From a virus, in the IMG/VR virus record IMGVR_UViG_3300021197_000748, positions 1 to 57,038 of that record: a stretch of 57,038 nt of DNA. One strand, written 5' to 3'. The notes under the pieces were generated by a model, which saw only the letters and a list, made by a program, of their open reading frames with translations, made no database searches and had not been told where the DNA came from. Position numbers and translations under genes: made by a program. Positions 1 to 56,538 of the stretch are shown piece after piece. Positions within the stretch are counted from its first letter, which is position 1, and every line of letters begins with the position of its first letter.

Positions 1-3000
1 CCATCTTCCTCGGCGGTACGCGCCACAGGTCGAACGACGTCGCCCGTGCTGGCAGTACCTCGGTCCGCGCTCTTCGGCGGGGGAGGTCCCATCAGCGGGG
101 CAGTGGTTTCGGTCTTAGTGCCCGGCTTCACCGGGTCATCACCGATCGCCTTGGGTCGCTTCTTACCCTTGGTCTTAGGCTTCGGCTGCTCCGGAGTCAG
201 GATCTTATCCTGGAGCTCCGTGAGGAAGGCACGGCCACGCTTGGCGTTCTTGACGACATACGCAGCGTCTTCCTCAACCGTCTTCCCAGAGATACCGCGA
301 AACGGTGAGTTCTCGGGAACAGTGTAGTTAATAGCTTGGACTGAAACGTTGGGATCGTCCATAACGATCTCGGACTTGGTAGTCTCGCGTTCCAGCCATC
401 CCAGCTCGACAAGAGCGTCGAGCGCCAGCTCGGAATCCTCGGACTCATACTGCTTCTGCTTCATGGCTGCCATCTGCTTCGCAAAGTCTGCGCGCTGGGT
501 AGCCGAAAGCTTAGAGTTGAGGTTATGAGGAACGTACTTCCGGGGATCCATACCGTTCGAGTCCATGGACCCGTTACGCTTGGCATTCTCAAACACCCGC
601 TGGAAGTAATCAGTGAGCTGGTTGTTCATAGCGAACACATCATCCAGCATCCGGTCAGCATCCCCACCATACTTCTTAATAAGGTCGGGCATCTGCTCGG
701 TAATAGCCTTAGACAGTGCGGCTCGTGCTTCGGGCGTATCATTAACCAGAAGACCGCGCATACGGAGCTGCTGCACCGCTGACTGGAACTGCTGGTAAAC
801 CTTCGGCCCGAGCTTGGCTGCCATGTCTCGCGTAAGGCGACGCACGGCAACGGTTTCCATCATCGCCGCATTGGCGACACCTTCGATGCTCGAAAGGTCG
901 GAGCGACCACCGTAGCGCCGACGTCCGATGTGCTGGTTACCAATGAACTGGGCACCGGCACGGATCAGTCGGATGTTACTACGGAACAGTCGAGCCTGAC
1001 TCTGGGGAAACAGAGCCACCCGAGAGAACATCGCCTCAATCTTATCACCGATAGGAGTCTGCTCAAACATATGCTTGAGCATGTGCCGGTCAGCGCTTGC
1101 ACCAGTGGTGCTCACGAGCTCGGGGTCCACACGGTCAACCAGACGCGTCAGGGCGTTGGACATAAGCATCCGCCGCTCGATGGGCGTAAGGTTTTCATAG
1201 GTCTTAGTCTCGGCCTCAATCCGGTCAAGAGCAGTCTTGGCATCATAGTCATCGACACCGAGCGCCTTGTAGTCAGCACGAAGCTTCTCTTCCTGCTTGC
1301 GGATCTTGTTGAGTGCCTCGTTAAGGTCGGCCGCGCTGCGCTTAAAGCGGTTGCGGGCACCTTCGTATGCAGCCACGATACGCTTGCGCCGTGCGGCGAG
1401 ATCGCGAACCTTCTTGTAGGCTTCACTCTTACGGAACGCGGCGAAGTCGTACGAAGCGTTAGCCTCGTCAACCACCAGGTTCTTAGCAGAGCCTTCTTCC
1501 CACAGCTTGTTGATGATATCAGCACCTGCGGGGTTGTCGTTCAGGAGCTTGGCTCGGGCCGTGGCGTTGCCAGCGGTACCGATATAAGAGTCGATGAACC
1601 TAGCGATCTGCCGGGTGGTCATACCGAGACCACTCGCGGACTTAGTAGTCAAATCATTAGCCACGTTAGTCATGATCGCGCGGAGCTGGATAGCACGCTT
1701 GAGCGTGGGGTCAGCCGCGATAGCCTGACGGCCAGCGATCTTCATCTCAGCCAGGTCGGCAACAATACGGCCGATCTGATCTTCTGACATATAGGCTTTG
1801 AGATTATTATCAATAAGGAACTTAGTAAACTGGTCGAGAGCACGTCCATCGCGGACGGCCGTCATGATCTTAACGAGATCAGTGACATCCTCGGCCTTTA
1901 CGTCCTCGCCGCGCATCATCTTGGCCATAATGTTTTCGGCCTTGTTACGCGTGGTAGGCGACGGGTCGTTAGTGACCCGAGCGCTGGTGGCGAAGTTGTC
2001 GGCAGCCTCAGCATCACGCTGGGCCATCGCACGCTGGAGCCGCTCGGCTCGGGAAACAACCGCGGCCGGCTGAGGTCCTTCGACCTCGGGGCCACGCTTG
2101 CCTGCAGCAAGATCTTCGAGCGACACAGGACCGCGCTTGACGGGTCCCGGCGCCTGAGCGATCGAGCCACCGCGCGTTGCGATCTCTCGCTGAGCCACAT
2201 AGCCCTTCCACAGGGTATCGAGTTCAGCCTTGCCGATCTTACCGTCGACGCCGAGGTCAGATGCCACCGCGAACAGGAAGTTAACGACTTCCACGCGGGA
2301 CATACCGATCGAATCGAGCTCAGCAGAGTTGAGCATGGCCGCGGCGCCGTCCGACGCTTCCACCGGGCCATCATTTTCGACGTGCCGCTGGAAGAAGGTG
2401 TTAGCACTATCGAGTGCGGCCTGACTGCTCGCCTGTACACGGACAGCAACCTCGGGAGGCAGACTACCGTGGGACAGAGCGAATTCGAGTTCATCATTAT
2501 TAAGAGTTCGAGCAATATCATATGCCTCGGCTCGCATCTTCGCATCATCGCCGAACATACCCATACGGGCACCGGCGCGGGACGCGTTGCTACCGAGCTT
2601 GCCAATGCCGCCAACGGTCTTGGCGACACCGGTGAGACCAAGCGGGAGGGCCAGACTGAACCCGGCGCCCATGGCACCAGTGAACGCGGTATCCTCAGCC
2701 GCAAGGCTCGAGTCGAACTGAACGGAGGTACGGCCGCGCTGGTAGTTACCGAGCTGAGCGTCAATCGACGACACAAGCCCACTACCCGCAGACATAGTAC
2801 CTTCCATCACGGCGTTCTCAACAAGGAACCGGCCAGAGCTTCGCCAGAAGCCTGCACCAGCAACCTTGGCTGCCGTAAACCTAACTGCACCGGCCCCGCC
2901 AGTAAGCGGACCACCGATAGTCATATCAAACATAGCCATCGGATCATCAACCATGCCGCGGTACATATCACCGCCGAAGCGCATGGCACTACCGAACCAG

Positions 3001-4307
3001 GAGCCCTCGCCGTATTCACGGTCGATAGCCCGGGTACGCATCTTGTGGCCTACGATCTGGAGGATCTCGCGGTCGGCGAGCATGATGAGCGAAGCCTGGT
3101 TACGAACCATAGCCTGCGCATCATTGTCTGCCCCGTTCATGAAGACCTCGAACGTGATGCCGTTCTCTTCAAGAATATTCCGACGGTTTTCATCGAGCGC
3201 AGCCCAACCCTTTTCCGGGGTGAAGCCGTGCTCCTGCTGCATGGCCAGAGCTTCCGTAAAGAAGTCCTGCCCAAAGACTCGTGAGGCCGCAGCAACGCCA
3301 GCAAGGCCTTCTGCTCGCTCTTCAGGAGTCTTACCATTAATAAATTTATTAGCACCTTCCATACCGAGGTCCTGAACCTTGCGGATCATGAAGGCACCGG
3401 TGAGCTCGCTCTCCGCTGCATTCAAGTCCAGCCCAAGCTCACGAGCCTCGGCGAACCACTCCTGCGCCTCGGGGAGGGCAAGCGCGTTCTTGAGGTAACC
3501 CATGTCGTTTGCACCGAGCTGGAGCCGCTCGCCCGCCAGGCGGGTGTGCAACTGCTTGATCGCATCGACGTCACCTGCTTCAGCAGCCTGGACCACACGG
3601 TCGTTGGCGCCAAGCAGGGACTTACCGGCACGGATCATCTCGGGCAGAAGGCGATTGCGCACCGCTTCGCTGTCCATGTTCTCAACTCGCTCGGCGAGCA
3701 TACGGTCAGAGCCGGAGGCTCGGATCGCAATGCCCAGCACGGAGTTGTCGTACAGTCCGATAGCGCTAGCCGCGTCACTGATGGTATCGCCAGCCATCTG
3801 GAAGATGTTCTGTTCCATACCAACCTGTCCCGTGCTAAAGCCGGGGATGTTCTGCTCGCCGAAGACGCCCTCTCGCCCGCCAAGGCGGATACGCTCTTCT
3901 TCGCGCGTAGCTTCACCAGCGATCTGGTCGAACATAGCCATCGTCTCGATCTCACCGAGCTCATAGTGAGCAAAGATTGACCGGACACTGTTCTGATGTG
4001 AAGCCCAGCGGATGTTGTACTTAACTTCCTGCAAGTTCTCGTCCATACCCATGGTGATACGCGAGTTTGCGGTGTCAGTGTCCTCGGCAGCACCAAAGGC
4101 ACGAGCGCCGTAGTGGTCGGGGTTCTGCCACATCAGAGTATCAGCATCGATGCCAGACATCTTAGTTACCACGCCGTCGAGTCCTGGCATTTCAACCATC
4201 TCGTTATCGATACGGTACTGGTCAGCCTTGGCATCAAACATGTCATACTCGCCGTATGTCATCGGCTGGGCACGGGTGCCCATCAGCTTATCATAAGAAT
4301 TACTCAT
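1..4307 (-). CDS. giant internal virion (ejection) protein, gp16-like, C-terminus cut by window edge
   Basis: An open frame starts at ATG 4307 (MSNSYDKLMGTRAQPMTYGE) after an AAAGGTTAAC ribosome site and stays open to the left edge, giving at least 1435 residues; its stop lies outside the window. The protein is Ala, Glu and Arg rich, with long predicted helices. Around residues 500-640 there are two Gly/Ala-rich hydrophobic stretches that could insert in a membrane. A Pro/Lys-rich segment (PEQPKPKTKGKKRPK) lies near the left edge. It is the last of three consecutive genes after the large terminase (252, 1140 and at least 1435 residues), the size progression of T7 gp14-gp15-gp16, which leave the capsid and form the trans-envelope channel. 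T7 gp16 has 1318 residues and an N-terminal transglycosylase domain; I see no clear lytic motif in the visible part. The assignment rests on size, order and composition, not on a recognised domain. Confidence 0.72.
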   Translation of the reverse strand, partial: MSNSYDKLMGTRAQPMTYGEYDMFDAKADQYRIDNEMVEMPGLDGVVTKMSGIDADTLMWQNPDHYGARAFGAAEDTDTANSRITMGMDENLQEVKYNIRWASHQNSVRSIFAHYELGEIETMAMFDQIAGEATREEERIRLGGREGVFGEQNIPGFSTGQVGMEQNIFQMAGDTISDAASAIGLYDNSVLGIAIRASGSDRMLAERVENMDSEAVRNRLLPEMIRAGKSLLGANDRVVQAAEAGDVDAIKQLHTRLAGERLQLGANDMGYLKNALALPEAQEWFAEARELGLDLNAAESELTGAFMIRKVQDLGMEGANKFINGKTPEERAEGLAGVAAASRVFGQDFFTEALAMQQEHGFTPEKGWAALDENRRNILEENGITFEVFMNGADNDAQAMVRNQASLIMLADREILQIVGHKMRTRAIDREYGEGSWFGSAMRFGGDMYRGMVDDPMAMFDMTIGGPLTGGAGAVRFTAAKVAGAGFWRSSGRFLVENAVMEGTMSAGSGLVSSIDAQLGNYQRGRTSVQFDSSLAAEDTAFTGAMGAGFSLALPLGLTGVAKTVGGIGKLGSNASRAGARMGMFGDDAKMRAEAYDIARTLNNDELEFALSHGSLPPEVAVRVQASSQAALDSANTFFQRHVENDGPVEASDGAAAMLNSAELDSIGMSRVEVVNFLFAVASDLGVDGKIGKAELDTLWKGYVAQREIATRGGSIAQAPGPVKRGPVSLEDLAAGKRGPEVEGPQPAAVVSRAERLQRAMAQRDAEAADNFATSARVTNDPSPTTRNKAENIMAKMMRGEDVKAEDVTDLVKIMTAVRDGRALDQFTKFLIDNNLKAYMSEDQIGRIVADLAEMKIAGRQAIAADPTLKRAIQLRAIMTNVANDLTTKSASGLGMTTRQIARFIDSYIGTAGNATARAKLLNDNPAGADIINKLWEEGSAKNLVVDEANASYDFAAFRKSEAYKKVRDLAARRKRIVAAYEGARNRFKRSAADLNEALNKIRKQEEKLRADYKALGVDDYDAKTALDRIEAETKTYENLTPIERRMLMSNALTRLVDRVDPELVSTTGASADRHMLKHMFEQTPIGDKIEAMFSRVALFPQSQARLFRSNIRLIRAGAQFIGNQHIGRRRYGGRSDLSSIEGVANAAMMETVAVRRLTRDMAAKLGPKVYQQFQSAVQQLRMRGLLVNDTPEARAALSKAITEQMPDLIKKYGGDADRMLDDVFAMNNQLTDYFQRVFENAKRNGSMDSNGMDPRKYVPHNLNSKLSATQRADFAKQMAAMKQKQYESEDSELALDALVELGWLERETTKSEIVMDDPNVSVQAINYTVPENSPFRGISGKTVEEDAAYVVKNAKRGRAFLTELQDKILTPEQPKPKTKGKKRPKAIGDDPVKPGTKTETTAPLMGPPPPKSADRGTASTGDVVRPVARTAEED

Positions 4308-11329: not shown

Positions 11330-11489
11330 GGTGTTGAAGATGGTTGCGCATATCGTGGATACTACGTCGGTTGGTATCCGTTTCCTTAATCACATTATCC
11401 AGCTTATTTTCAATAGCCGGGATCTTCCATACCCTCATGAGCACAAAGCCAACCATCCCTGTAATAAGATACAGGAAATATTCAATCAT
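11280..11489 (-). CDS. small membrane-anchored coiled-coil protein (possible spanin or lysis accessory)
   Basis: The protein has 69 residues. ATG 11489 is chosen because AGGAGGAAGTA precedes it; an ATG at 11504 is an alternative. There is one N-terminal transmembrane helix (YFLYLITGMVGFVLMRVW, about residues 4-21). A polar coiled coil follows (ENKLDNVIKETDTNRRSIHD onward). One TM helix plus a coiled coil, just after a holin, fits an inner-membrane spanin (Rz-type) or a holin modulator. It is much shorter than typical Rz (about 150 residues) and I see no partner lipoprotein, so the lysis role is only suggested by context. Confidence 0.6.
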   Translation of the reverse strand: MIEYFLYLITGMVGFVLMRVWKIPAIENKLDNVIKETDTNRRSIHDMRNHLQHHETRITLLEKSKEENS

Positions 11490-11507
11490 TACTTCCTCCT
11501 GCATCGT

Positions 11508-11915
11508 CTACCTCCCTCTGGCAATCGAAGAACCGCCAAGATAGAAGCCAACAGCGGCGAGCAAAGCAGCCCGCAGCTCAGGCAGTACAACGATACCAGT
11601 AAGACTCTCCCAGCCTCCAGTGAAGATTCCGAGGAAGTCCCAAGGGGCTCGCTCGGACTCGACGTAGGTGGGCATTCCAATGAGTCCACCGATGAAGGGG
11701 GCGATAGCCACGACCCAGAGTACCGTGAAGACGAGCACCCGACGACCGACATGAGAACCACGCACAGCAGCGCGATCAGCGGAATCGTCAGCCACAGCTT
11801 GCTTCTGTAGCAACATCTCTGTAGTCTTCTGCTGGTTCTCAATGGACGTAGCCATAAAACGAAAGATGAAGCCAGCAAGGCCACCACCTAACATACTAAT
11901 AAGTTCCATACTCAT
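11508..11915 (-). CDS. holin, three transmembrane helices (GTA-holin-like)
   Basis: The protein has 135 residues. ATG 11915 forms an ATGA overlap with the stop of the peptidase-like gene; an in-frame TTG at 11927 is less likely. Three hydrophobic segments are visible: near the N-terminus (ELISMLGGGLAGFIFRFMA), about 60-80 (VLVFTVLWVVAIAPFIGGL), and a C-terminal one (LTGIVVLPELRAALLAAVGF) followed by YLGGSSIARGR. The 3-TM layout, length and the C-terminal aromatic-Gly-Ser signature fit the alphaproteobacterial gene-transfer-agent/phage 3TM holin family. It would form inner-membrane lesions that trigger lysis. The family call is by pattern, not alignment. Confidence 0.72.
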   Translation of the reverse strand: MSMELISMLGGGLAGFIFRFMATSIENQQKTTEMLLQKQAVADDSADRAAVRGSHVGRRVLVFTVLWVVAIAPFIGGLIGMPTYVESERAPWDFLGIFTGGWESLTGIVVLPELRAALLAAVGFYLGGSSIARGR

Positions 11916-12535
11916 CGCATAATCCAATCTTTATTAAAGGGCTTGAACCACCATTCTGTGGTGTCTCGCATCTGCCAGCCGTCATTGGTCACACCAATCC
12001 AGCCATCGGTTCCGTGTGCCTCCTGCACCAGGTTAAGCCAAGCGTTGAAGGCTTCCCCGTAGAACCCTGCGTTGTCGAGCACCATAACAAGGTGGCGTTG
12101 AAATTCAGACGTATCACATCCGATATTAGTGGGCGGCGTAGGATCCCAGCTGCAATAGGCAGCATGGAACCAGACCGCACCGTTGTTTGCAATGAGTTGG
12201 TGATCGCCTGCAGCCCACATAATAGCCGCTGCAGACCAAGCACCCACTCTATCTCCCGCGATAGTTACCAATCGAGGATGGGCTTCCATCTTCCAATAGA
12301 GACCCAAACCAGCATAGGCGTCACCGCCGCCGCTGTCAATGGTCAGGAGGATTACACGATTACCAGCCCGCGAGACAAGAAAGTCCCAGAGGTAGAGATC
12401 GATGCGCTCCACAGTACCAGTGTAATGAACGGAGATGGATACACCATCCTCGTCCTTCACCTCGAACCGTCCTGCACTTGCTGAGGAACACAGCGATGCG
12501 ACAAGCACCAGTGCTCCCATAATAAAGTTTCTCAT
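11912..12535 (-). CDS. secreted ClpP/crotonase-fold serine peptidase-like protein
   Basis: The protein has 207 residues from ATG 12535, preceded by AAAAGGATATTACC. A start further upstream would add 28 residues but would spoil a clear signal peptide: MRNFIMGALVLVASLCSSAS followed by A and the mature GRFEV. The mature part has the ClpP/crotonase order. A strand ends in the oxyanion loop DSGGGDAYAGL (67-77). GDRVGAWSAAAIMWAAGD follows, with a Ser at the ClpP nucleophile position (S101). Then comes GAVWFHAAY with His124 at the ClpP histidine position. It resembles periplasmic ClpP-like proteins (COG3904 type). The signal peptide places it in the periplasm or secreted. It overlaps the holin start by four bases, so the two are coupled and probably act in the same late step. 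Substrate unknown; it may prepare the envelope for lysis or DNA release. A catalytically dead binding protein is also possible. Confidence 0.7.
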   Translation of the reverse strand: MRNFIMGALVLVASLCSSASAGRFEVKDEDGVSISVHYTGTVERIDLYLWDFLVSRAGNRVILLTIDSGGGDAYAGLGLYWKMEAHPRLVTIAGDRVGAWSAAAIMWAAGDHQLIANNGAVWFHAAYCSWDPTPPTNIGCDTSEFQRHLVMVLDNAGFYGEAFNAWLNLVQEAHGTDGWIGVTNDGWQMRDTTEWWFKPFNKDWIMR

Positions 12536-12577
12536 GGTAATATCCTTTTCATTTATGTAAACTACTTGTTGTGTTGT

Positions 12578-12617
12578 CATAATAAGGGGACACAGGCCAC
12601 AGCTGACCTGTGCCCCC
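12578..12617 (-). terminator. strong stem-loop separating the fibre island from the lysis genes
   Basis: On the minus strand GGGGCACAGG (12617-12608) pairs with CCTGTGTCCCC (12596-12586), with one bulged base, around a short GC-rich loop, followed by TTATTATG. It is the strongest hairpin in the 246-base gap between the stop of the last spike gene (12782) and the start of the peptidase-like gene (12535). I see no convincing gene in the rest of this gap, only an 18-codon frame without a ribosome site. It could be a terminator or an RNA processing or stability element that separates late-gene dosage. Confidence 0.6.
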
Positions 12618-12781
12618 ACTATGAGAAGTTCCGACGCTGCTGCCCTGGTATAATTGAAGGTTATACGTTAGGCTGCGGCACTGAATTAGGCGTAACATTT
12701 GGCGTTCGCACCACCATCCACGATTTGTGGGATACATTCTAATTACAGCTGCATCTGCAGCAGACGGTCCTAAGGTTCAAA

Positions 12782-46354: not shown

Positions 46355-47219
46355 CTTCTAGATCCTCCTTGAATGTGGTCCACCAGTCTTGGGCGAACAT
46401 ATCCTGTACGGACATCTCGCCACTCTCGATCTTAGCAACAAGCTCATCAAAGTGTTCGATGATCTTATCCTTCATCTCCTGGCTCATCTCTTCGTCTTCC
46501 AGCACCTGACGCTTGGCTTCGTTAAAGCCTTCGATCAGTTCATCTGGCTGGACGTCGAACTGGAATGCCCGGCACTCGGCACAGTCGCATGGGTTAGCGA
46601 ACCTAGACGGGTGATCTCCCACGAAGTGAGGCATACGCTCCTCGATCTTTTCCTCGAGCTCTTCGACACTCTTATCATTAACGATGGCCCAGTTGAATAG
46701 GCTCTCGTAGTCAGGATCGCCACCTTCGACCTTCTGGGCGAGCCACTCGGATTCGTGAGCACGCCACGCGGCATCAGCCTCGTCGACCTCACGCTTGCCC
46801 TTAAAGATAAAGAGGCGGATAGCCTCGAACTGCTTGACAGCGTTGAGCTCGTTGTGGTAGCGGCAGTCGTCACAGATGATGACGGTTTCCTTCCAGTCAC
46901 CATCAACCACTGGCTGCTCAGTTTCCTTACACTGTTCTTCCGCCACCATCTCGAGCCACAGGTTGACCCAGTGGTCCTCGTTCTGCTCTCGCTTGCCCGC
47001 GCCGAGCTCCTGGCATTCCTTGCGGTATACATCAGGCATCTCGGCCTTGAACTTGCGGGCATCCTTATAGCCGTGCTTCTCAGCGCACGCCTGCTTGAGT
47101 GGGGTGGAGAATGAGATACGCTTGGGGTTCTTCCCCAGCATGGCTGCTTCCATCTCGATGATGTCTGCAACCTCAGTCTTACCGACTCGGGCGATTCCGC
47201 CCAGTACGATTACTTGCAT
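46323..47219 (-). CDS. deoxynucleoside monophosphate kinase-like P-loop protein with C-terminal extension
   Basis: The protein has 298 residues. ATG 47219 follows GAAGGAGTTCTACAC. The P-loop GGIARVGKTEVADII is at residues 7-21, followed by a lid-type segment (FSTPLKQACAEKHGYKDARK). IICDDCRYHNELNAVKQ (about 113-129) matches the Walker B/substrate strand of phage dNMP kinases, which turn dNMPs from degraded host DNA into dNDPs. From about 170 there is an acidic, coiled-coil-rich extension with a CDCAEC cluster that could bind a metal. Placement between polymerase and exonuclease and upstream of dUTPase/RNR supports a nucleotide role. Substrate specificity cannot be read. Confidence 0.72.
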   Translation of the reverse strand: MQVIVLGGIARVGKTEVADIIEMEAAMLGKNPKRISFSTPLKQACAEKHGYKDARKFKAEMPDVYRKECQELGAGKREQNEDHWVNLWLEMVAEEQCKETEQPVVDGDWKETVIICDDCRYHNELNAVKQFEAIRLFIFKGKREVDEADAAWRAHESEWLAQKVEGGDPDYESLFNWAIVNDKSVEELEEKIEERMPHFVGDHPSRFANPCDCAECRAFQFDVQPDELIEGFNEAKRQVLEDEEMSQEMKDKIIEHFDELVAKIESGEMSVQDMFAQDWWTTFKEDLEDDDDADDGPA

Positions 47220-47644
47220 GTGTAGAACTCCTTCATCAGTTTGTTTGGTAGGAACCGCTCGTTGACATCTAGTCCGATAATCTTCAGGCAGCGCCAGACG
47301 AGATCGGTACAGGACTTAGGCGTAGGCAGAAACCGACCGGTGAAGTTATAGAGATAGAGATACGGCCTGTTGATCGAGCCGTAGTCATTGAGAAGCTGAG
47401 AGATAGCAGGCATAGCACCCTGCGGTAGTGGTCTCGTGCACGTCAGCACATTGGGTGCACAGTACACCTTCTCGAGCACTCGAGTCTGACGCCAGTAGGC
47501 GCCATACTGGTTAACGAAGGTTTCAAATGGCCCAATGCGAAGAGCAACATGGTTGATCTTGGCTTTGGACCAGTATGATACCTGCTTATTTTCCCAGTGG
47601 AACTTGGACCAGTCGTATCCTACGATTCGGTATGTCAGTGGCAT
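47210..47644 (-). CDS. NlpC/P60-like (permuted papain-fold) protein
   Basis: The protein has 144 residues. ATG 47644 (MPLTYRIVGYDWSKFHWENK) is preferred to the in-frame TTG 47653; GGAAAGGA lies about 10 bases before it. Two motifs fit circularly permuted NlpC/P60 enzymes: an early His in INHVALRIG and a late Cys in PKSCTDLVWRCLKIIG. Members cleave or modify amide bonds in peptidoglycan peptides or other substrates. No signal peptide. It sits between DNA polymerase and dNMP kinase with overlaps on both sides, an unusual place for a lysis enzyme. T7 has its amidase (gp3.5) before gene 4, also in the middle region, so an endolysin role is thinkable but unproven. Confidence 0.5.
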   Translation of the reverse strand: MPLTYRIVGYDWSKFHWENKQVSYWSKAKINHVALRIGPFETFVNQYGAYWRQTRVLEKVYCAPNVLTCTRPLPQGAMPAISQLLNDYGSINRPYLYLYNFTGRFLPTPKSCTDLVWRCLKIIGLDVNERFLPNKLMKEFYTCK

Positions 47645-49326
47645 TCGGACCAATCCTTTCCAATCTGGTATTCAGCATCAACAGGCATGGCAAAACCGAG
47701 GCGGTCACCGGCATCAAGAGCCGACTGCACCAACAGCTTGCCAACCTCATCAGCATACTCAGGCGGGCATGAAACCTGAAGCTCATCGTGGACCCACGCC
47801 ATCATCTCGTGCGGAATATCCTTGAGGTACTCCGTAGCGATAACGAGCCACGCCTTGCTGATAACGGCGCCCGCACCCTGCAGGAGGGTGTTGAGTGCCT
47901 TGTGATCCGAGCGGATCAGCACTTCCCGACCATCGAGAAGCTTGAGCTTGCCGGTACGCTTAGCCTTGAACTGCGCAGCCTCGATCAGCTTCTGCAGTGC
48001 GGGGATAGCCTTGAAGAATGATGCCTTCAGTGCCTTACCCTGCTTAGCCTTACCACCGGTGATCGAGCCGATCTTAGCGTCGCCTGCGCCGTAGATGAGG
48101 GCGTAGATGAACGTCTTAGCGTTGGCTCGAGTCGGCAGCCCAGCAGCGTGCTGGTTGGTGGTATGGATATCACCGTTGAGGATCTCGTTAGCATAGGCGC
48201 CCTTATCGTAAGGAGCCATGTAGTGAGCGAGGCAACGGAGCTCGATACCACTGAGGTCGCAGCCGACCTGCACCCAACCATCGGGAGCGGGACCGAACAA
48301 CGCGCGGCAACGCGGGTCGGACGGTACCTGCGCGAGGTTAGGCTGTGAGTGTGAAGCACGGCCGGTAGCCGTACCCTGAGCGTTGGTACGCCCACGGACA
48401 CGACCATCGACAGTACGCTTGATCCAATCGGTAACCATGCCGATCTTCTTGTTGATGTCACGGTACTCGAGCCCGAGCTTCGCCTCGGGGTATGAGAGAG
48501 ACTTGAGCGTCTCTTCATCCACGATGGCGTTACCGCTGTCGGTAACCTCAGGCTTCCATCCGTACTTCTCAGTGAGCCGCTCGGCCCACTGCTTGCTCGA
48601 GCCGGGGTTGAACTCCTCAACCTTAGACTTGAGCTCCTTGCCGGTCTTATCACTGAACCGGCGATGGACCTTAGTTGGGAACACCTCGCGAAGCGTATCC
48701 TCGAGCTCGGCACGGCGTGCCGTCATCTCATACTCGAGCTTCTCGGCGGCATCGGTATCAAACCCGAAGCCAGTGTTACCCATCTTAGCACAGAGCACAG
48801 CAACCTGCTGCTCGAAGTTAACCAGCTTGTGGTTCTCCACGATCCAGCGTTCCTGTGCCTTGAAGATCGAGATGTTGGCAGCGACATCCTGCACGCAGTA
48901 CGTGAGCATATCCTGGCTGAAGATTTCCCAGCCACCATCATAGTCGATCTTGTAGTCACCGACGAACTGTGCCCAGTTGGCGAGCGAGTGGCCCTTCAAC
49001 CCCTTCGGCAGGTTCGTACGGTCGGGGTGCATCAGCCGCCCCACGATCAGCGTGTCGATCAGCTTGCAGGTGGGAGTCCACCCACAGAGCTTCTCGAGCA
49101 CGCGGTTATCATAGTCAATGATGTTGTGGCCGATGATCACATCAGCCTGCTTGAGCAGCTCGACGGCTGCCATGTGCTGTCCGGGCGTGAACTTGAACAC
49201 CTCGTTAGTGTCCACGTCGATGACCACGATACAGTGGATCGTATCCACAGTGGTCTTCATGTTGCCCTTCTTGTCCAGCTCATTGTTCACGAGTCCGTTA
49301 GCTTCGATATCATAGCATAGTCTCAT
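47635..49326 (-). CDS. DNA polymerase, family A (gp5-like)
   Basis: The protein has 563 residues. ATG 49326 follows AAAGGAGTAATC. The 3'-5' exonuclease domain shows DIEANGL (Asp6, Glu8), GHNIIDYD (about 66-73) and CVQDVAAN (Asp147). The polymerase domain has motif A GCDLSGIELR (Asp357), motif B RANAKTFIYALIYGAG (about 400-415) and motif C HDE (513-515). It replicates the phage genome together with the helicase-primase. T7 gp5 has 704 residues; the difference probably reflects loss of the thioredoxin-binding loop and compact thumb, so processivity may not depend on host thioredoxin. That last point is inference. Confidence 0.95.
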   Translation of the reverse strand: MRLCYDIEANGLVNNELDKKGNMKTTVDTIHCIVVIDVDTNEVFKFTPGQHMAAVELLKQADVIIGHNIIDYDNRVLEKLCGWTPTCKLIDTLIVGRLMHPDRTNLPKGLKGHSLANWAQFVGDYKIDYDGGWEIFSQDMLTYCVQDVAANISIFKAQERWIVENHKLVNFEQQVAVLCAKMGNTGFGFDTDAAEKLEYEMTARRAELEDTLREVFPTKVHRRFSDKTGKELKSKVEEFNPGSSKQWAERLTEKYGWKPEVTDSGNAIVDEETLKSLSYPEAKLGLEYRDINKKIGMVTDWIKRTVDGRVRGRTNAQGTATGRASHSQPNLAQVPSDPRCRALFGPAPDGWVQVGCDLSGIELRCLAHYMAPYDKGAYANEILNGDIHTTNQHAAGLPTRANAKTFIYALIYGAGDAKIGSITGGKAKQGKALKASFFKAIPALQKLIEAAQFKAKRTGKLKLLDGREVLIRSDHKALNTLLQGAGAVISKAWLVIATEYLKDIPHEMMAWVHDELQVSCPPEYADEVGKLLVQSALDAGDRLGFAMPVDAEYQIGKDWSECH

Positions 49327-56027: not shown

Positions 56028-56303
56028 TCAGCCTGCCTCCCATGGGTGGATAAAGGTACTGAGCGTCGAGCCATTCCACTTAGGTGGGTTGGCTTTGTTG
56101 CTCGGAGCGCCAGTAAGCTCGAGGAACGACGTCAGCACCTGCTGAGCTCGATCCTTGAACTGAGCCTCACGTCCGCGCAGCCGCAGCGTCACCGAGACGC
56201 CGTTGCCGCTCGTCGCAAACTTGGTGGCCTGCTTGGCCTTTCGCTCCATGTCACGGTCGTCAATACGAGCTGACAGCTGTACATTCTTAGTCTTCGTCTT
56301 CAT
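56028..56303 (-). CDS. stand-alone IF3 C-terminal-domain-like protein
   Basis: The protein has 91 residues. ATG 56303 is six bases after ACGGAG; ATGs at 56309, 56306 and 56324 are alternatives. The sequence follows the bacterial IF3 C-domain along its length: a first strand (KNVQLSARIDDRDMERKAKQ, where IF3 has VKEIKFRPGTDEGDYQVKL), then GNGVSVTLRLRGRE (IF3: GDKAKITLRFRGRE), a helix (QFKDRAQQVLTSFLE) and a last strand (TLSTFIHP, IF3 MIMVLAP). IF3 binds the 30S platform, prevents 70S formation and checks the initiator codon; the isolated C-domain is known to carry these activities. The phage copy lacks the N-domain and linker. It may bias initiation towards phage messages or shut down host translation. 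Known: domain function. Inferred: the phage role. Confidence 0.72.
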   Translation of the reverse strand: MKTKTKNVQLSARIDDRDMERKAKQATKFATSGNGVSVTLRLRGREAQFKDRAQQVLTSFLELTGAPSNKANPPKWNGSTLSTFIHPWEAG

Positions 56304-56538
56304 CATCATCTCCGTTGAGGTCATCGATCAACTTACGGATCTGCTCTTCGTCGAGATTCTCGAGCATGTCCTGCATGAGGTTGTCATGCCAGTTAGGATC
56401 TTTCTGGTCAAGCACTGCTACGATAGCAGTTAGTGCCGTGTCTTCCTCGAGTGACGTAGTGTCAGTACCGAGAGACTGGAGCATAGCTACAGAGTCATAG
56501 AGATCAAACCAGATATCACCGATTGCGCTTCGAGTCAT
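56287..56538 (-). CDS. 83-residue acidic protein, unknown function
   Basis: MTRSAIGDIWFDLYDSVAML ... ending LNGDDDEDED. ATG 56538 follows AGGAGGCAATGA and lies inside the end of the 130-residue gene; its end overlaps the IF3-like gene by 17 bases. It is acidic, helical and Leu-rich (NLMQDMLENLDEEQIRKLID), with a C-terminal Asp/Glu run. Such acidic early proteins are often DNA mimics or inhibitors of host enzymes, but nothing here identifies a target. Coupled to the IF3-like gene. Confidence 0.6.
   Translation of the reverse strand: MTRSAIGDIWFDLYDSVAMLQSLGTDTTSLEEDTALTAIVAVLDQKDPNWHDNLMQDMLENLDEEQIRKLIDDLNGDDDEDED

Follow-up and report, generated by a model that had tools for sequence, protein, structure and literature searches.

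A 57,038-nucleotide contig from IMG/VR (IMGVR_UViG_3300021197_000748, G000 in our set, hereafter the window) carries, directly before a candidate holin gene, a gene for a predicted exported protein whose ClpP fold is well supported by sequence profiles and a structure model. The protein belongs to a family of eight in T7-like viral contigs, all of which keep a signal-peptide-like N-terminus, the serine and histidine expected of a ClpP-type active site, and a pair of cysteines just beyond the histidine. The gene is accessory, and its alleles are exchanged between near-identical viruses. Our preferred reading, held tentatively, is that it encodes a ClpP-fold serine peptidase, made late, exported and independent of ATP, that would act on host envelope proteins as the phage leaves the cell.

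By gene content the window is a T7-like bacterial virus, with genes for an RNA polymerase, primase-helicase, DNA polymerase, portal, scaffold, nozzle, gp14-type protein and terminase. The two ends of the contig share no overlap; the left one falls inside a giant gene, and the right one stops shortly beyond the gene for the RNA polymerase. The window is therefore a genome fragment from which the early region is missing. A relative of 57,266 bases (G012) has a 64-base overlap between its ends and is thus complete. Copies of the giant late gene encode 4668 aa in G001 (L010:1265-15271, minus strand) and 3489 aa in G012 (L059:1210-11679, minus strand), and a Pfam scan of the 4668-aa copy returned no family. 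A 98-aa protein at 56028-56324 of the window (minus strand) matches the C-terminal domain of translation initiation factor IF-3 (E = 2.8e-17) and has a relative in G004. Five contigs that duplicate others (L013, L014, L028, L029 and L032) were left out of the comparisons below, and L023 and L027 are opposite ends of one contig. Features of the window are collected in Table 1.

Table 1. Positions of the features discussed, in window coordinates
Feature	Position	Strand	Basis or remark
ClpP-fold peptidase gene, predicted exported, 207 aa	11912..12535	-	profile matches and structure model
Predicted signal peptide, residues 1-21	12473..12535	-	AxA|G site at residues 19-21 read by eye; rule positive in 8/8 of the family
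SGGG oxyanion loop, residues 68-71	12323..12334	-	alignment; SPGG or SYGG in some relatives
Ser101, putative nucleophile (GAWSAAA)	12233..12235	-	8/8 of the family; 19/19 with head proteases and L039
His124, putative catalytic histidine (WFHAAY)	12164..12166	-	8/8 of the family; 19/19 aligned
Invariant Cys128/Cys140 pair, close behind His124	12116..12154	-	8/8 of the family
ATGA, ClpP-like stop over holin-candidate start	11912..11915	-	in 5/6 holin-linked members
135-aa holin candidate with three hydrophobic segments	11508..11915	-	phrog_38283, a family of unknown function
+1-frame ORF in holin gene, candidate spanin-like lipoprotein	11489..11887	-	lipobox VVGC, Cys codon 11737-11735; start codon uncertain
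Rz-like i-spanin candidate, 74 aa	11280..11504	-	one N-terminal hydrophobic segment and hydrophilic tail; phrog_739, E 0.022
Structured noncoding element, 140-220 bases across loci	12577-12760	-	conserved, before operon; terminator-like hairpin 12577-12624
Giant late gene, cut by window end	3-4307	-	after internal virion genes
147-aa gene next to DNA polymerase	47210-47653	-	invariant His and Cys

The sequence-only reading had described the product of this gene as a secreted ClpP-type peptidase-like protein coupled to a holin. Its coordinates for the gene are right; the strand, which it did not give, is minus, with the ATG at 12535 and the TGA at 11914-11912. The SGGG loop, Ser101 and His124 lie where it had placed them, serine before histidine as in ClpP, and the ATGA overlap of stop and start that it reported is present, recurring in five of the six holin-linked family members, among them the window; in L015 a short gap separates the two genes. 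The signal peptide it proposed also stands. A home-made rule and reading by eye both find a positive n-region, a hydrophobic core and an AxA site, and this simple rule is positive for all eight family members and for none of ten phage ClpP-like head proteases. Among 209 ORFs of at least 100 aa from five contigs the rule was positive for seven, including one family member; the ClpP-like genes of the window and L002 escaped it in this background set because the ORF caller chose upstream starts. We rejected a lipoprotein assignment for the protein: Cys16 misfits a lipobox in the window, as judged by eye, and is missing in L008.

Profile searches, Foldseek and VIA together give good support to the ClpP fold named in the sequence-only reading. 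The Pfam family CLP_protease (PF00574) matches the window protein at E = 8.8e-4 and 19.6 bits, just under the cut-off of 20.2, which is passed by two of three close relatives (two of four close members when the window is counted). A PHROG of head maturation proteases matches at E = 1.7e-6, and NCBIfam NF045542 at E = 8e-7 and 29.1 bits, far under its curated cut-off of 120. A profile built from six relatives retrieves ClpP from the PDB at E = 1.4e-4; all matches listed are ClpP except one membrane protease, and the matches below threshold are ClpP too. A structure model from a 19-row alignment, ten rows of which are head proteases that may steer the fold, reached pLDDT 84 and pTM 0.82. Searched with this model, Foldseek gave a best E of 1.3e-5 and ClpP in all 50 PDB matches listed, and VIA aligned 144 residues with bacterial ClpP at Z 14.3 and rmsd 3.2. 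A model from the family alone had pLDDT 57 and was used just for the order of elements; Foldseek with this model returned no match at E <=0.001.

The seven relatives of the window protein in viral contigs share 31-80% identity. Across the eight members Gly70, Gly71, Ser101, His124, Cys128 and Cys140 are invariant, together with some 28 further columns, and the ClpP-like genes of the window and L002 differ with a dN/dS of 0.13. When the eight are aligned with ten head proteases and L039, another exported phage protein, only Gly70, Gly71, Ser101 and His124 remain invariant in all 19. Cys128 and Cys140 likely form a disulfide. Asp177 is a plausible place for the catalytic aspartate, yet it is found in only five of the eight members. 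This lack of a conserved triad Asp would suit a catalytically idle ClpP-fold protein that serves outside the cytoplasm in binding or as a ring scaffold. Classical ClpP requires a ring, which, like the incompletely conserved Asp, counts against our preferred reading. We consider an idle protein quite unlikely, because the four residues shared by all 19 sequences, active head-protease relatives included, are those of the oxyanion loop, nucleophile and histidine.

In a tree of 21 rows, for which head proteases were trimmed to 260 aa, the eight family members group together (100/99), apart from the ten head proteases and from three further phage proteins with predicted export. The usual label for ClpP-like proteins of phages is head maturation protease, and such proteases are the nearest named families here, a point against an exit role. 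The family resembles such proteases (NF045542; PHROG 1684, 2976 and 133) in fold, GG loop and Ser-then-His order; two of the eight members occupy the gap between portal and scaffold, and the window gene lies at the holin candidate. What sets the family apart from them is an N-terminal signal peptide, an invariant pair of cysteines, a C-terminus that is short, a clade of its own and a T7-like genome. One could read the protein as a displaced head maturation protease whose export is mispredicted, as its best named families and the two portal-site members would suggest. That role in virion morphogenesis seems very unlikely to us: the signal-peptide rule separates the family, portal-site members included, from the head proteases, the cysteine pair is invariant, the tree sets the family apart, and the complete genome of G012 shares the head genes and lacks the ClpP-like protein. 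We know of no need for a maturation protease in T7-type heads.

The export signal and the coupling to a holin candidate are atypical of phage ClpP-like proteins, and the sequence-only reading was justified in calling the combination unusual. The family likewise shares its fold and catalytic order with bacterial ClpP (PF00574) and departs from it in being predicted to be exported, where the envelope offers no AAA+ partner, and in its unconserved triad Asp and its cysteine pair. Three other phage ClpP-fold proteins appear to be exported: L039, XaC1_159 of Xanthomonas phage XaC1 and VPHD479_0238 of Vibrio phage D479 (annotated hypothetical). L039 is positive by the signal-peptide rule, and XaC1_159 has a signal peptide by eye. 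The XaC1 and D479 products (L066:1447-2022 and L065:1372-1950), hypothetical proteins of large phages, combine a ClpP-type Ser/His order with an N-terminal export or anchor segment. These three lie on a different branch from the family, with weak tree support, and have at the nucleophile a SAC motif, as do bacterial COG3904-type periplasmic proteins. No lysis gene was seen in the neighbourhood of L039. We found no description of an exported phage ClpP at a holin in the mainly open literature searched, including PMC6139136, PMC12596118, PMC13237592, PMC5964084 and PMC5332604.

Searches beyond the viral contigs gave no relatives. Two scans of bacterial genome contigs with family alignments found none, a plasmid collection contained none, and phage records offered nothing convincing for the window protein (best E = 4) or for L030 (best E = 0.2). 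These searches thus link the family to no cultured phage or host.

Sixteen contigs with this holin candidate, the window included, were compared for the gene that precedes it. It is the ClpP-like gene in six, a gene for an 87-aa membrane-anchored protein in five (L018, L019, L021, L022 and L023), and neither in the remaining five (L016, L017, L020, L025 and L026). When the ten contigs without it at the holin, the complete G012 among them, were searched in six frames with the profile, no ClpP-like protein turned up anywhere. The gene is therefore accessory and not the sole lysis enzyme. Over 20 records, the family profile recovered the eight known contigs and a weak match in P8625 (E = 8.2e-7). 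The other two members, in L030 and L031, have the gene between portal and scaffold with their signal peptides kept, and nest within the family beside L015 (100/98), from which it follows that the gene has changed place. Genomic place alone thus does not tell its function, and the incomplete linkage to lysis genes counts against an exit role.

The ClpP-like gene also varies between viruses that are otherwise nearly the same. From the holin candidate onward, L003 and L008 share 98-100% DNA identity in nearly all 100-column blocks, and across the ClpP-like gene they share 53-81%. Synonymous divergence between them is saturated in the ClpP-like gene, compared with a dS of 0.04 in the holin candidate. 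The sole other low block, at 65%, covers the tail of the Rz-like gene (L003 positions 1286-1385). ClpP-like alleles are thus exchanged between near-identical viruses. The window and L002 present the reverse arrangement, with terminases at 51% identity and holin candidates at 95%, which implies that the cassette itself moves between viruses.

Such mobility bears on the main rival to an exit role, which fits almost as well: an envelope-modifying accessory gene (moron) whose peptidase trims a surface protein, for example a receptor, and so blocks superinfection or keeps progeny from re-adsorbing to debris, with the late operon supplying timing only. Taken by itself this is a possible but somewhat doubtful reading. 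It would be favoured by the two unrelated genomic sites, both in late regions, by the presence of the gene in only 6 of 16 contigs, and by the allele exchange, as expected for a strain-specific target. Six of the eight copies lie directly at the holin, however, and all but one of these overlap its start, a tighter association than a randomly placed moron would require.

A conserved structured noncoding element, present with or without the ClpP-like gene, follows the last tail gene and precedes the holin operon. It also occurs at L002:7786-7960 and L015:5132-5350 and in L016, L017, L018, L020, L021, L023, L024 and L025; L019 and L026 lack it. The terminator-like hairpin of the window has a z of -4.3. 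In an RNA alignment of 13 loci (L022 being a near-copy), 29 pairs are predicted; eight of these, almost all hairpin pairs, have changed on both sides. The one Rfam match to the element is at chance level (E = 1.2). A repeated phage promoter was considered and rejected, as its motif is single in the window within six mismatches, besides one weak second match.

Downstream of the ClpP-like gene, the three hydrophobic segments of the 135-aa protein suggest a holin. The 74-aa protein that follows may be an Rz-like i-spanin, with a weak match to phrog_739 (E = 0.022). Six of the eight family members are adjacent and coupled to these holin and spanin-like genes, themselves predicted. Within the holin gene, the +1 frame contains a candidate spanin-like lipoprotein. 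Its lipobox ([AVG]GCS) is present in all 16 close holin genes (window, L002, L003, L008 and L015-L026), and in 15 of them no stop interrupts the frame beyond codon 12; in L024 a stop precedes the lipobox. Synonymous codon shuffles retained both the open frame and the lipobox in <=0.5% of cases per gene, in genes that are related and so not independent. The codons behind the lipobox (xGG GTG CTC) are identical in 15 of 16, and in L026 a holin residue changes from Val to Leu with the +1 Cys retained. P8625 and C75C1 do not carry the +1 lipobox frame. The Cys is followed by a Ser/Pro-rich stretch, a hydrophobic segment and, in several loci, a basic tail, a layout like that of a u-spanin, although a +1 reading of transmembrane codons generally yields hydrophobic residues in any case. 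The start codon is the weak point of this candidate: six of the 11 loci listed have an ATG 17 codons upstream of the Cys, and the window has none there; the start-codon table covers 11 of the 16 loci, and a synonymous-site profile covers nine.

The available portion of the spanin survey of Kongari et al. (2018; PMC6139136) describes four architectures. The 74-aa protein, with its transmembrane segment plus coil, and the +1-frame lipobox ORF resemble the two-component and unimolecular spanins of that portion. The candidate lipoprotein differs from them in lying inside the holin gene rather than the i-spanin gene, an arrangement not among the four described there.

A further question is which enzyme degrades the cell wall. 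The sequence-only reading had found no standard endolysin in the window, and on this it was correct: six-frame searches of the window gave no match to PF01510, PF00959, PF01464, PF00877, PF08291, PF13539, PF05708 or PF05497, and Pfam scans of the window gave no wall hydrolase. Its suggestion that the ClpP-like protein stands in for an endolysin is not supported by comparison with relatives. Two T7-like contigs carry an i-type lysozyme (Destabilase, PF05497) in the early region, which is missing from the window: G012 (G012:C1:32281-32568, minus strand, E = 2.7e-9), whose copy has an N-terminal export signal, and G009 (G009:C1:5404-5703, plus strand, E = 2.9e-10). Inferring the absence of an endolysin from the window is therefore unsafe. 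These lysozymes occur in two of 20 records, where absence from fragments is uninformative, and the accompanying Pfam scan covered 73 of 164 listed proteins, from G012 and G009 only, leaving aside ORFs that looked antisense or exceeded 1600 aa. Relatives of the i-type lysozyme occur in Cellulophaga phages, some of them annotated as lysozyme.

A second candidate lies in the window itself. The 147-aa gene next to the DNA polymerase gene is found in all five long contigs (the other copies at L012:3284-3736, minus strand; L054:7280-7714; L057:18379-18840, minus strand; L062:3960-4436, minus strand), with its His and Cys conserved in all five. It is possible, judging by these residues, that it encodes a papain-like or NlpC-type hydrolase; Pfam, PHROG, NCBIfam and PDB comparisons gave no support. 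It appears extremely unlikely that the ClpP-like protein serves as the principal lysis enzyme in a non-standard module, as the lack of wall-hydrolase matches in the window might suggest, in view of the lysozymes in the early region of relatives, this possible hydrolase, and the viruses with the same holin that live without the gene. To our knowledge, ClpP-fold enzymes cleave proteins and not glycans. A requirement of the ClpP-like gene for lysis is contradicted by its distribution only, G012 being among the ten holin contigs that do without it.

In the exit role that we tentatively prefer, the operon of holin and spanin-like genes would be expressed late, with the ClpP-like peptidase translated first. 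A cleavable signal peptide would carry it through the inner membrane, and a disulfide beside the active site would stabilise it outside the cytoplasm. In that location Ser101 and His124 would cleave host envelope proteins at exposed loops, with no need for ATP or an unfoldase. This cleavage would help the burst or free progeny from the envelope, with the peptidase acting as an accessory to the phage's own wall-degrading enzyme and not as a substitute for it. The target probably differs between host strains. The parts of this picture established by computation are the fold, the conservation of Ser/His and of the cysteines, the signal-peptide features, the position in the operon, the optional distribution and the allele exchange.

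Two observations touch on the host. Dockerin-like repeats occur in L016, L017, L019 and L053 (PF00404 in one of the 73 proteins scanned), and the Verrucomicrobia phage P8625 carries a relative of the holin candidate. Together these hint, as a guess on our part, at planctomycete or verrucomicrobial hosts. As a separate observation, made by eye, the C-termini of two further proteins (L020:6861-7535 and L021:6742-7437) resemble PEP-CTERM signals, with PGPG, a hydrophobic stretch and a basic end. A bolder proposal, which we regard as unlikely, is an exit module new to science. In it an exported ClpP-fold protease would act against a host-specific layer of envelope protein and be swapped by recombination like a host-range gene, ahead of a holin gene that hides a +1 spanin-type lipoprotein, in hosts, perhaps planctomycetes or verrucomicrobia, whose envelopes are rich in protein.

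An exported family in its own clade, located at the holin and with its cysteines conserved, would represent a new class of envelope protease in phages, and would warn against naming ClpP-like genes by profile alone. If translated, the +1 lipoprotein encoded within the holin gene would add a spanin arrangement outside those in the available part of the PMC6139136 survey. That near-identical viruses exchange alleles of the ClpP-like gene points to a target specific to the host, for which a search can be made. If the peptidase acts at exit, Gram-negative lysis would gain a proteolytic step besides the holin, wall hydrolase and spanin.
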